Of a stretch of 64,000 nucleotides of DNA, positions 10,502-60,552 are shown one piece after another. The notes below the pieces were generated by a model. That model was not told the origin of the DNA. It searched no databases and saw only the letters and a program-made list of their open reading frames with translations. Numbering within the stretch: the stretch's first letter is position 1; every line of letters begins with the position of its first letter. Both the position numbers and the translations under genes were made by a program. The DNA is from Ruegeria sp. YS9 (lineage in GTDB: Bacteria > Pseudomonadota > Alphaproteobacteria > Rhodobacterales > Rhodobacteraceae): NCBI RefSeq assembly GCF_024628725.1, contig NZ_CP102409.1, forward strand, positions 1,769,001 to 1,833,000, given 5' to 3'.

Positions 10502-10550
10502 GTGGGGGCTTTGCCCCCACACCCCCAGGATATTTTCAGCCAGATGAAGC
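10502..10550 (+). repeat. Composite hairpin-core repeat, copy 1 (G-rich hairpin subtype)
   Basis: Directly after the erpA stop lies a hairpin (GTGGGGGC, TTT, GCCCCCAC; 10502-10520), then the conserved core AGGATATTTTCAGCCAGATG continuing into AAG (10528-10550). The same core occurs at 10660, 20124, 27797, 59032 and 59072. This copy faces copy 2 head-to-head within the same intergenic region. Confidence 0.75.
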
Positions 10551-10558
10551 AGAGGTCC

Positions 10559-10584
10559 GCCCTCTGACCGTAAGACCAGAGGGC
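10559..10584. repeat. Hairpin between the two repeat copies
   Basis: GCCCTCTG (10559-10566) pairs with CAGAGGGC (10577-10584) across a 10-nt loop. It lies between repeat copies 1 and 2. There is no T-tract directly after it, so it is not a convincing terminator by itself. Confidence 0.5.
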
Positions 10585-10659
10585 TTCACCTGGCGCGGTC
10601 ATCGGCGTCCCCGCCTGTACCGCCACTTCAGCTTGAAGAAATTCGGTTAATAATCCGTT

Positions 10660-10705
10660 TCTTCATCTGGCCAAAAATACCCCGGAGCGCGAGGCAGAGC
10701 CTCGC
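10660..10705 (-). repeat. Composite hairpin-core repeat, copy 2 (GCGAGGC subtype)
   Basis: Read on the minus strand: hairpin GCGAGGC/TCT/GCCTCGC (10689-10705), then GCTCCGGGG, TATTTTTG and GCCAGATGAA. It matches copy 5 (59014-59058) almost base for base over about 44 positions, including the hairpin loop. It ends about 73 bp before the exonuclease III start. Confidence 0.8.
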
Positions 10706-20098: not shown

Positions 20099-20148
20099 GC
20101 GAGAGGCCAGCCTCTCGCGCTCTCCGGAATATTTTTAGCCAGATGAAA
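20099..20148 (+). repeat. Composite hairpin-core repeat, copy 3 (GCGAGGC subtype, extended stem)
   Basis: Hairpin GCGAGAGGC/CA/GCCTCTCGC (20099-20118), then GCTCTCCGGAATATTTTTAG and CCAGATGAA. Compared with copies 2 and 5 the stem has two extra pairs, with the matching change in both arms, so the palindrome is kept while the sequence differs. It lies between the convergent M48 and PIN genes. Confidence 0.78.
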
Positions 20149-27398: not shown

Positions 27399-27788
27399 AT
27401 GAAACAGAACCTGCACGCCGTCACCCTCGTGGTGCCGGACTGCGATGAAGCCATCTCGTTTTACACAGGAAAACTCCGTTTCAAGCTCTTGAAGGATATA
27501 GATCTCGGAGGCGGAAAACGCTGGGTCCTGATCGCCCCGCCGGGTTCAGACGGCAGCGCCCTTCTTCTGGCCAAGGCCGACGGGCCTGAACAGCGCGCCG
27601 CCATAGGCAGCCAGACCGGTGGCCGCGTCGGATTCTTCCTGCAAACCGATGATTTCCACCGCGACTACTCACAGATGCGTGCCAACGGGGTCCATTTCGA
27701 AGAAGATCCCCGCAGTGAATCCTATGGCACTGTCGCCGTCTGGCGCGATCCTTATGGCAACCGCTGGGACCTGATCCAATTCACCTGA
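27399..27788 (+). CDS. VOC-family (glyoxalase/dioxygenase superfamily) protein
   Basis: A 129-residue protein with two beta-alpha-beta-beta-beta units typical of the vicinal oxygen chelate fold: LHAVTLVVPDCDEAISFYTG at the N-terminus, WVLIAPPGSDGSALLLAKAD, and SYGTVAVWRDPYGNRWDLIQ at the C-terminus. Candidate metal ligands are His6 and the C-terminal acidic positions. It starts 7 bp after the leucyltransferase gene and is probably co-transcribed. Substrate unknown; a second VOC protein is at 35492. Confidence 0.85.
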   Translation: MKQNLHAVTLVVPDCDEAISFYTGKLRFKLLKDIDLGGGKRWVLIAPPGSDGSALLLAKADGPEQRAAIGSQTGGRVGFFLQTDDFHRDYSQMRANGVHFEEDPRSESYGTVAVWRDPYGNRWDLIQFT

Positions 27789-27796
27789 TCCGCTTC

Positions 27797-27860
27797 TTCA
27801 TCTGGCCCAAAATATCCCGGGGATGAATTGGCCGCAGGGCAAGAAGGGGCTGGCCCCTTC
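27797..27860 (-). repeat. Composite hairpin-core repeat, copy 4 (G-rich hairpin subtype)
   Basis: The core TTCATCTGGCCCAAAATATC and CCGGGG (27797-27822, core read on the minus strand) is identical over 26 bp to copy 6. A hairpin GAAGGGGC/TG/GCCCCTTC follows at 27843-27860. It lies 8 bp after the VOC gene stop. Confidence 0.78.
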
Positions 27861-59013: not shown

Positions 59014-59058
59014 GCGAGGCTCTGCCTCGCGCTCCGGGATATTTGCAGCCAGATGAAT
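59014..59058 (+). repeat. Composite hairpin-core repeat, copy 5 (GCGAGGC subtype)
   Basis: Hairpin GCGAGGC/TCT/GCCTCGC (59014-59030), then GCTCCGGGATATTTGCAG and CCAGATGAA. It begins 10 bp after the peptidase stop and faces copy 6, with 13 bp between the two cores. Confidence 0.82.
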
Positions 59059-59071
59059 AAAGGCCCCCTTG

Positions 59072-59131
59072 TTCATCTGGCCCAAAATATCCCGGGGGAG
59101 CCGCGCGCAGCAAGGCGGGGGCAGCGCCCCC
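59072..59131 (-). repeat. Composite hairpin-core repeat, copy 6 (G-rich hairpin subtype)
   Basis: Core TTCATCTGGCCCAAAATATC plus CCGGGG (59072-59097) is identical to copy 4; a hairpin GGGGGC/AGC/GCCCCC follows at 59117-59131. Together with copy 5 it fills the space between two convergent genes. Confidence 0.82.
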
Positions 59132-59157: not shown

Positions 59158-60552
59158 TTACATGTGGATCACGCGGCCATACGCATCCAACACGCTTTCG
59201 TGCATCATTTCTGACAGAGTCGGGTGCGGGAAGACCGTGTTCATCAGATCTTCTTCGGTGGTCTCCAGCTGCCGCCCAACCACATAGCCCTGGATCAGTT
59301 CCGTGACTTCCGCGCCGATCATATGCGCCCCCAGCAGTTCGCCTGTCTTGGCGTCGAACACGGTTTTGATCAGACCTTCCGGTTCGCCCAGAGCTATGGC
59401 CTTGCCGTTGCCGATGAAAGGGAAGCGACCGACTTTGATGTCATAACCCAGCTCTTTGGCCTTGGCTTCGGTATATCCCACCGAGGCCACCTGCGGCTGA
59501 CAATAGGTACATCCGGCGATGCTTTCGGGCTTGACCGGATGCGCATGCTGGCCTGCGATCAGATCGGCGACCATGACCCCTTCGTGGCTGGCTTTATGTG
59601 CAAGCCAGGGCGCGCCCGCGATGTCACCAATCGCATAAAGGCCATCGACACCGGTGCGGCAATATTCATCCGTCACCACATGCGTGCGGTCGATCTTTAC
59701 GCCCAGCGCCTCCAGGCCCAGGTTTTCGACATTTCCTACGATCCCGACAGCGGAAATCACGGTGTCGAACTCGTGCTTCTCAACCTTGCCCTTGACCTCG
59801 ATATGCGCGGTCACCTTGCCCTTTCCACGATCCAGTTGCTTGACCATGGCTTTTTCCATGATGGTCATGCCTTGCTTGGTAAAGGCTTTCTTGGCCAGGG
59901 CACTGATTTCCGCATCTTCCACGGGCAACACGCGGTCCATCACCTCGACCACCGTCGTATCGGCCCCGAGCGTGTTGTAGAAACTCGCAAACTCGATGCC
60001 GATCGCGCCCGAGCCGATGACCAGCAACTTTTTGGGCATCCGGGGCGGTTGCAGCGCGTGCTTGTAGGTCCAGACCAGATCGCCGTCAGCCTCGAGACCG
60101 GGCAGTTCGCGGGCCCGCGCGCCGGTTGCTAGAATGATGTTCTTGGCCGTCAGTTCTTCGGTGCCCTTGTCGGTCTTGACGCTGACTTTGCCTTTTGCGG
60201 GGATCGTCGCCTCACCCATCACCACGGCGACCTTGTTCTTCTTCAGCAGATGGCCGATGCCGCCCGAAAGCTGCCCGGCAACGCCACGGGATCTCTTGAC
60301 GACCGCGTCCAGATCGTAACCGATCTTGTCGGCCTTCAATCCGAAATCCTTGGCGCGTTCCATCAGGTGAAACACTTCGGAGGACCGCAGCAATGCCTTG
60401 GTGGGAATGCACCCCCAGTTCAGGCAGATGCCACCAAGGTGCTCGCGCTCGACCACGACGGTTTTCAGACCAAGCTGGGCCGCACGGATGGCGGCGACAT
60501 AGCCACCGGGGCCAGCCCCGATTACGATCAGATCATAGGATTGTGCAGCCAT
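59158..60552 (-). CDS. lpdA: Dihydrolipoyl dehydrogenase
   Basis: A 464-residue FAD disulfide oxidoreductase, the E3 component of 2-oxoacid dehydrogenase complexes. FAD fold YDLIVIGAGPGGYVAAIRA, redox disulfide in GGICLNWGCIPTKALLRS, NAD fold LLVIGSGAIGIEFASFYNTL, and the C-terminal His-Glu pair in FPHPTLSEMMHESVL. No E1 or E2 gene lies beside it, so it may be a shared or stand-alone copy. Another lpd elsewhere in the genome is likely. A palindrome precedes it at 60583-60600. Confidence 0.94.
   Translation of the reverse strand: MAAQSYDLIVIGAGPGGYVAAIRAAQLGLKTVVVEREHLGGICLNWGCIPTKALLRSSEVFHLMERAKDFGLKADKIGYDLDAVVKRSRGVAGQLSGGIGHLLKKNKVAVVMGEATIPAKGKVSVKTDKGTEELTAKNIILATGARARELPGLEADGDLVWTYKHALQPPRMPKKLLVIGSGAIGIEFASFYNTLGADTTVVEVMDRVLPVEDAEISALAKKAFTKQGMTIMEKAMVKQLDRGKGKVTAHIEVKGKVEKHEFDTVISAVGIVGNVENLGLEALGVKIDRTHVVTDEYCRTGVDGLYAIGDIAGAPWLAHKASHEGVMVADLIAGQHAHPVKPESIAGCTYCQPQVASVGYTEAKAKELGYDIKVGRFPFIGNGKAIALGEPEGLIKTVFDAKTGELLGAHMIGAEVTELIQGYVVGRQLETTEEDLMNTVFPHPTLSEMMHESVLDAYGRVIHM

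Follow-up and report, generated by a model that had tools for sequence, protein, structure and literature searches.

Probable terminator-like 3'-end elements of the Rhodobacteraceae, with an anchor common to the family and a tail specific to the genome

The stretch of DNA analysed here (the window, 64 kb at its full length) carries six copies of a composite element in which a G/C hairpin forms the head; the anchor GGATATTT comes next, and some three loose bases separate it from a tail of about ten bases, GCCAGATGAA. The first-pass annotation had located six copies of a hairpin joined to a conserved core, and all of them are present where it had placed them: with up to 3 mismatches, the core GGATATTTNNNGCCAGATGAA has exactly six matches in the window, while 0.05 are expected and no more than one appeared in any of 100 shuffles. 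The parts of the copies are the following.

10502..10527, + strand: head of copy 1, hairpin GTGGGGGC-TTT-GCCCCCAC (10502-10520), then mirror C-block CCCCC (10522-10526)
10528..10548, + strand: core of copy 1, anchor GGATATTT (10528-10535), spacer TCA (10536-10538), tail GCCAGATGAA (10539-10548)
10662..10682, - strand: core of copy 2, anchor GGGTATTT (10682-10675), spacer (10674-10672), tail (10671-10662), one mismatch
10683..10705, - strand: head of copy 2, hairpin GCGAGGC-TCT-GCCTCGC, then mirror block GCTCCG
20099..20126, + strand: head of copy 3, hairpin GCGAGAGG-CCAG-CCTCTCGC (20099-20118); CCTCTC, centre GCG and mirror CTCTCC (20111-20125)
20127..20147, + strand: core of copy 3, anchor GAATATTT, spacer TTA, tail GCCAGATGAA, one mismatch
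27797..27817, - strand: core of copy 4, tail (27806-27797), anchor GGATATTT (27817-27810)
27818..27860, - strand: head of copy 4, GGGG/CCCC hairpin, second hairpin and terminal CCCCG block (double-hairpin type)
59014..59036, + strand: head of copy 5, hairpin GCGAGGC-TCT-GCCTCGC (59014-59030); CCTC, GCG and mirror CTCC (59025-59035)
59037..59057, + strand: core of copy 5, anchor GGATATTT, spacer GCA, tail GCCAGATGAA
59072..59092, - strand: core of copy 6, its tail facing that of copy 5, with 14 nt (59058-59071) between them
59093..59131, - strand: head of copy 6, GGGGGC/GCCCCC hairpin, second hairpin and terminal CCCCCG

By reading the copies we recovered the two hairpin subtypes that had been distinguished, GCGAGGC-type and GGGGC-type, as well as the longer stem of copy 3, with matched changes in both arms. 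Their placement at gene ends needs one amendment: copy 4 adjoins a stop codon by its tail (27797) and not by its hairpin; this tail begins 9 nt past the stop of the + strand gene 27399-27788. The stop of a convergent, lpd-like gene (59158-60552) lies 26 nt beyond the head of copy 6. That the element belongs to no named family agrees with Rfam, whose matches in the window amount to one tRNA and nothing else. Between copies 1 and 2 (10570-10640), one can notice another hairpin, CCCTCTG...CAGAGGG, which reads CTCTCTG...CAGAGAG in a relative of the same genus (G043), a compensatory change; about 40 bases which follow it are nearly unchanged in the genome of the window (G000) and in G043, and have no Rfam match. 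This hairpin is possibly a separate small RNA or structured element.

In the whole genome, the core (at most 2 mismatches) occurs 48 times, divided 25/23 between the strands, and the reversed pattern, taken as a control, does not occur at all, which bears out the description of a dispersed composite repeat. The first-pass annotation had named two outcomes that would refute it, a lack of further copies and a lack of stem covariation in relatives; both were looked into, and neither came about. All of these units but one are on C1 (47 of 48; 3.24 Mb, about 75% of the genome), the last being on C2 (0.75 Mb); contigs other than C1 are nearly free of elements. Eight tail-to-tail pairs account for 16 units, and seven of them have their core starts 35-37 bp apart, copies 1 and 2 forming a wider pair. 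We read the anatomy of the element from the 48 units of the genome and from 225 distinct units taken from all the loci gathered, the latter falling into five head types and 31 "other". The head is made of a G-rich 5' arm and a C-rich 3' arm, alone or with a second hairpin after it, and what separates the hairpin or hairpins from the anchor is a C-rich block or, in one type, GCCTCCGGCGG.

The third base of the spacer is A or G in 97 of 98 units; because of this bias, the spacer serves as a loosely constrained control and cannot be taken as neutral. Its length varies as well: L300 (C1:2353101-2353133 of this genome) is a further element with a 2-nt spacer, outside our fixed pattern, and at L206, in G043, one partner of a pair has a spacer of 4 nt. 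Past the tail, often at about 3-5 nt, stands GGATC, found within 24 nt in 22 of 48 units of this genome and in 41 of 50 units of G043, the background being 123 of 3136 windows. This motif may in part be the stop codon context of the facing gene, because TGATC stands at the stop of 13 of the 64 predicted genes of the window, an apparent preference which overlaps the GGATC block after the tail.

The first-pass annotation had missed that the core is made of two parts with different histories, the anchor being family-wide and the tail genome-specific. In this genome, 35 of the 39 anchors (CSRGGATATTT) carry the tail, and the remaining 4 equal the count given by the reversed-pattern control (4). 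The whole core (at most 2 mismatches) is present in 91 of 198 genomes of the family; head and anchor recur in many Rhodobacteraceae, not in all. We searched for the anchor only in eight genomes of the family without a core match, and also in eight more genomes, this one included. Among the former, G001, G003, G006 and G050 have 10-39 anchors, which precede other repeated tails, while few were found in G044 (3) and G010 (2) and none in G004 and G013. Tail classes were defined after inspection, at no more than 1 mismatch, in the seven genomes with listings: CCAAGAAGT follows 38 of 39 anchors in G001, GCTCGATGAGAG 8 of 10 in G050 and GCAAGAGGAA 14 of 16 in G073, and several classes were needed in G006 (two, 9 of 11 anchors), G121 (three, 57 of 61), G148 (two, 60 of 64) and G003 (four, 13 of 23). 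Hence a genome may have a single tail or several. Within a genome, anchor and tail are locked together; from genus to genus, the tail differs.

In a class-wide sample of 289 genomes, the 284 lying outside the family have at most 7 anchors each, and no common tail was found among them in the rows listed. Some members of the family also have few in this sample, with a single anchor in each of G055, G215 and G408, so that the element is not found throughout the family. The head, followed by other tails, is also carried by plasmids (PLSDB) of Leisingera, Paracoccus, Salipiger and others. Three of the 28 records concerned belong to one small E. coli plasmid type and match the head only in part; these are 2,719-bp plasmids of E. 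coli from cattle faeces (CP057607.1, CP057610.1 and CP057614.1), with 39 nt of head at 87.5% and neither anchor nor tail. No annotated gene lies under the plasmid matches listed, one record being unannotated and the PLSDB tables incomplete. An exact core is also found in L064 ([Haemophilus] ducreyi ATCC 33940, NZ_FOJC01000003.1) and in L111 (an Anaerolineae MAG, JACDGI010000114.1), two records which look mislabelled or contaminated by Rhodobacteraceae DNA.

From its sequence, we consider it probable that this is a family of Rhodobacteraceae intergenic 3'-end elements, terminator-like and provided with an additional sequence-specific tail. By terminator-like we mean that the element would stop RNA polymerase, or would define and protect the 3' end of the mRNA. 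The head would fold in the transcript, the RNA would be halted or trimmed around the anchor, and a lineage-specific protein or RNA would read the tail, either in the DNA or in the transcript, and would have changed along with it. The near-identity of the tail within a genome, together with its difference between genera, suggests such a lineage-specific reader of gene ends, changing with the lineage. The several unrelated tail classes of G003, G121 and G148 count against reading, as several readers would then be needed in one genome. As the tail lies beyond the T-rich stretch, it would act as DNA ahead of a paused polymerase, or as RNA if transcription continues. If the tail is read, the transcript ends of a large and ecologically important family would depend on a lineage-specific code, which would have consequences for horizontal gene transfer and for the way expression constructs are designed for these hosts. 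Even on a more modest reading, the elements would constitute an unannotated gene-end family, missed by the terminator finders that are based on the U tract.

The element resembles a Rho-independent terminator by its G/C hairpin, often after a stop codon, by the T-rich DNA downstream and by its covarying stem, but it is without a U tract directly after the stem, and it possesses a fixed tail downstream and a mirror C-block. The first 10 nt after the last stem contain at most 3 T in 45 of 47 units, and ATATTT begins 8-13 nt after this stem in 38 of the 47 and 21-28 nt after it in the other 9. According to a Term-seq survey, the same 10-nt window holds 7-9 U in most species and 3-4 in Streptomyces (PMC12207403). 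A simple terminator scan calls only one of the six copies of the window, copy 2, and this through another pairing. Judged by its sequence, the element is not a standard intrinsic terminator. The terminators of RNA polymerase I (Reb1, TTF-I) have a T-rich release region and then the site of a sequence-specific protein, a succession to which the T-rich stretch and the sequence-specific site of our element can be likened; by simple geometry, this site, about 3 bp past the T-rich stretch, would leave too little distance for a protein to act as a simple roadblock while the RNA end lies in that stretch. As far as we searched, a terminator-like element at gene ends is of a known kind, and the genome-specific tail and the mirror block are undescribed: no description was found in open-licence PubMed Central (preprints were outside the scope), and none of six taxon terms tried occurs in PMC1852404.

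The counts of gene contexts in the genome rest on our own hexamer gene caller, trained on 27 long open reading frames of the window. The neighbour on the head side reads into the head in 36 of the 48 units. The intergenic placement tied to gene ends, described for the six copies, is supported over the genome; the strand bias relative to gene ends is real but incomplete, the neighbour of the 12 other units not reading in, and L022 and L228 fall within open reading frames scored as coding by the same caller. A facing gene lies on the tail side of 18 single units, and in 15 of them its stop is 3-16 nt from the tail. Twelve singles stand between co-directional genes, and in 7 of them the next predicted start is no more than 35 nt past the tail; this leaves little room for a promoter, so that termination there could only be partial.

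These 7 singles agree with another explanation, in which the element would be a REP/BIME-like stabiliser or processing site of the mRNA 3' end, without termination: the hairpins would block exonucleases, an endonuclease would cut AUAUUU, and the tail would mark the cut or be bound beside it. The displacement of the U tract from the stem speaks for it as well, and so does a site at the end of the gene for an ABC-transporter permease (BPD_transp_1): it lies between co-directional genes in this genome, and a single-hairpin element is found there no more than 170 nt from the stop in 18 of 30 loci (the best 30 of 107 genomes with a match, 149 having been searched). On the other hand, elements also occupy convergent intergenic spaces, where they pair tail to tail, and they stand at a site where relatives have hairpins with a T run. 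This site is the 3' end of the lpd-like gene (identified by Pfam), which bears the element in 5 of 30 loci (G000, G043, G006, G026 and, reversed, G016), whereas other loci, for example those of G003, G031 and G038, have a hairpin and then directly a T run. Weighing both sides, we regard a stabiliser or processing site as rather unlikely, though as an explanation to be taken seriously.

The permease and lpd-like sites also count in favour of the preferred reading of terminator-like elements with a specific tail. At the permease site, the lengths of the G run, of the C run and of the second C run are 5/5/5 in 11 loci and 6/6/6 in 4; the combinations 6/5/5, 6/6/7 and 5/5/6 each occur once. In 16 of the 18 loci, both C runs have the same length. 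The tails of this site differ between genera: it is GCCAGATGAAG in G000 and G043 and AACCCGAAGAAG in G148, each of which fits its own genome, and AAAAGATGAAG in G073, other than the main class of that genome. Tail switching in place is only partly shown; a hunt for sites common to G000 and to loci of other dialects gave one clear case, L037 with L012. At the erpA-like/xthA site, the element is present in 2 of 30 loci, those of G000 and G043 only, which speaks against the preferred reading. From the occupancy of all these sites, it appears that they are kept within the genus, sometimes across genera, and that they turn over on longer time scales.

The conservation of sites between species, which like the mirror repeat described below went beyond the first-pass annotation, was measured against G043. 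Orthology was established reciprocally from the flanks, the element being masked, and 44 of the 48 units have an ortholog in this relative. In these 44 pairs, differences affect 4 of 440 positions of the tail (0.9%), 11 of 352 of the anchor (3.1%) and 58 of 132 of the spacer (44%). Both partners had been required to match the core at no more than 2 mismatches, a requirement which by itself caps the differences of anchor and tail; that 44 of 48 units could be paired in spite of it is the stronger fact. The next 19 nt past the tail differ at 260 of 836 positions, and the flanks, in which coding sequence dominates, are 83.6% identical over the same pairs. Copying or gene conversion poorly explains steady blocks on either side of a changing spacer, which points to selection acting on the sequence of the tail, so that the tail is probably read by something.

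These figures bear directly on the idea of a mobile or freshly copied repeat, either a REP moved by a RAYT or a MITE-like sequence, the tail of which would be a passenger. In favour of this idea, the element is dispersed, in both orientations, with several subfamilies per genome, and its occupancy turns over between genera, as is seen at the erpA-like site. We nevertheless hold it to be improbable: the genome has one Y1_Tnp (RAYT/IS200 family), located on contig C3, and none on the chromosome, 44 of the 48 units are found at orthologous sites in G043, and a recent copying or gene conversion would not leave a spacer so different between blocks which differ by 1-3%. REP/BIME sequences with a RAYT (GTAG and CGTC families) are likewise intergenic hairpins, short and dispersed, which end in a conserved tag and stand alone or as inverted pairs, whereas the tag of our element is a 10-mer dialect beyond an A/T anchor, at sites conserved between species. 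No RAYT was found on the chromosome of G000, and the GTAG/CGTC tag is absent, by reading, from the units listed, which have GGATATTT and the tail instead. In the main text of PMC3733652, the words "Rhodobacter", "Roseobacter" and "Alphaproteobacteria" do not occur.

Genus dialects and inverted pairs near gene ends also recall the uptake sequences of the Neisseriaceae, which are words of about 10-12 bases with genus-level dialects, often in inverted pairs at gene ends (PMC3630211). We find it very hard to believe that the element is a DNA uptake sequence, or another DNA watermark with dialects, sitting in terminators by chance, as it is present in tens of copies and not in thousands, and is locked to a hairpin and an anchor. 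The decamer of the tail occurs 73 times in 4.3 Mb, 45 times in cores and 28 times elsewhere; out of 20 of these 28 sites which we examined, 17 are in frames scored as coding and 1 is the further element with the 2-nt spacer. A guide RNA or sRNA with a complementary decamer was also considered and rejected, no RNA gene having stood out among these 20 sites. Finally, ordinary Rho-independent terminators, alike through G/C richness and convergence only, would account for a hairpin and a T-rich stretch after stop codons, but this explanation is very improbable, for chance is excluded for the core by the counts in the window and in the genome, the tail lies past the T-rich stretch, where a standard terminator needs no fixed decamer, and anchor and tail are locked within genomes.

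We return to the terminator-like reading and to the fold of the head, for which the matched changes of copy 3 had been taken as a sign of selection; the stems do covary in related genomes. The second hairpin has 84 distinct forms, and in 66 of them it makes a perfect 5-bp stem (G-U allowed); swapping the 3' halves 2000 times gave a mean of 24.8 (sd 3.8) and a maximum of 37. For the GCCTCCGGCGG type, the pairs that form number 200 of 245, where swapping gave 167.9 (sd 5.1), and 0 of 2000 swaps reached this count. In the genome, a stem of at least 5 bp was found in 47 of the 48 units. In the folds of the orthologs with their flanks, which are noisy, 661 pairs were left unchanged, 113 were broken and 32 contained gaps, 12 more had changed on both sides and 25 on one; these folds are uninformative or adverse.

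Single-hairpin heads have an unexpected feature: the C-rich arm has its mirror image after it, as a rule with 3 nt in between, as in CCTC-GCG-CTCC, CCTCTC-GCG-CTCTCC, CCCCTC-GCG-CTCCCC and CCCCTCC-AGA-CCTCCCC. Our search pattern required complementary arms and a second pyrimidine block; it did not require mirror symmetry. Perfect mirrors were found in 43 of 47 distinct single-hairpin forms (81 units), against 22.9 by block swapping (sd 2.4, maximum 32 of 5000), forms from related genomes not being independent. In the 19 forms which bear a T, the mirror holds at 96 of 99 positions and a direct repeat at 66 of 99. A mixed test which includes the double-hairpin heads is weaker than that on single hairpins, with 394 of 604 for the mirror against 362.4 (sd 5.3), and 336 against 326.2 for direct repeats, 87 of 2000 shuffles being as high. 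When the run length alone is considered in double-hairpin heads, the mirror is kept in 77 of 92, against 48.2 (sd 3.3, maximum 59).

A mirror repeat beside a purine arm is the geometry required by a pyrimidine triplex. The purine arm, the pyrimidine arm, the 3-nt linker and the mirror pyrimidine block of the element are those of the pyrimidine motif (H-DNA, RNA triple helix), with the difference that the blocks of the element are short and mostly C. At neutral pH, where C+ G-C triplets are unfavourable, the long C runs make a triplex doubtful. In double-hairpin heads, the last C run goes with the first C run in 85 of 92 and with the G run in 70 of 92, and this closer tie to the former counts against a triplex. 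We infer that the mirror block may supply a third strand by folding onto the hairpin. In a tentative and rather doubtful extension, the nascent hairpin would take the mirror C-rich block as third strand and pull the anchor to the fold, which would aid the release or the definition of the RNA end, while a fast-evolving factor would read the tail in the spelling of the lineage. If this were true, each species would have its own code for the reading of gene ends, and a gene transferred to another genus would arrive with an end in the wrong dialect. Through its mirror symmetry, the element lends itself to a clean test of whether a natural bacterial RNA signal contains a third strand. Judged by eye, the heads of G148, G002, G121, G001 and G050, which are followed by other tails, have the same layouts.
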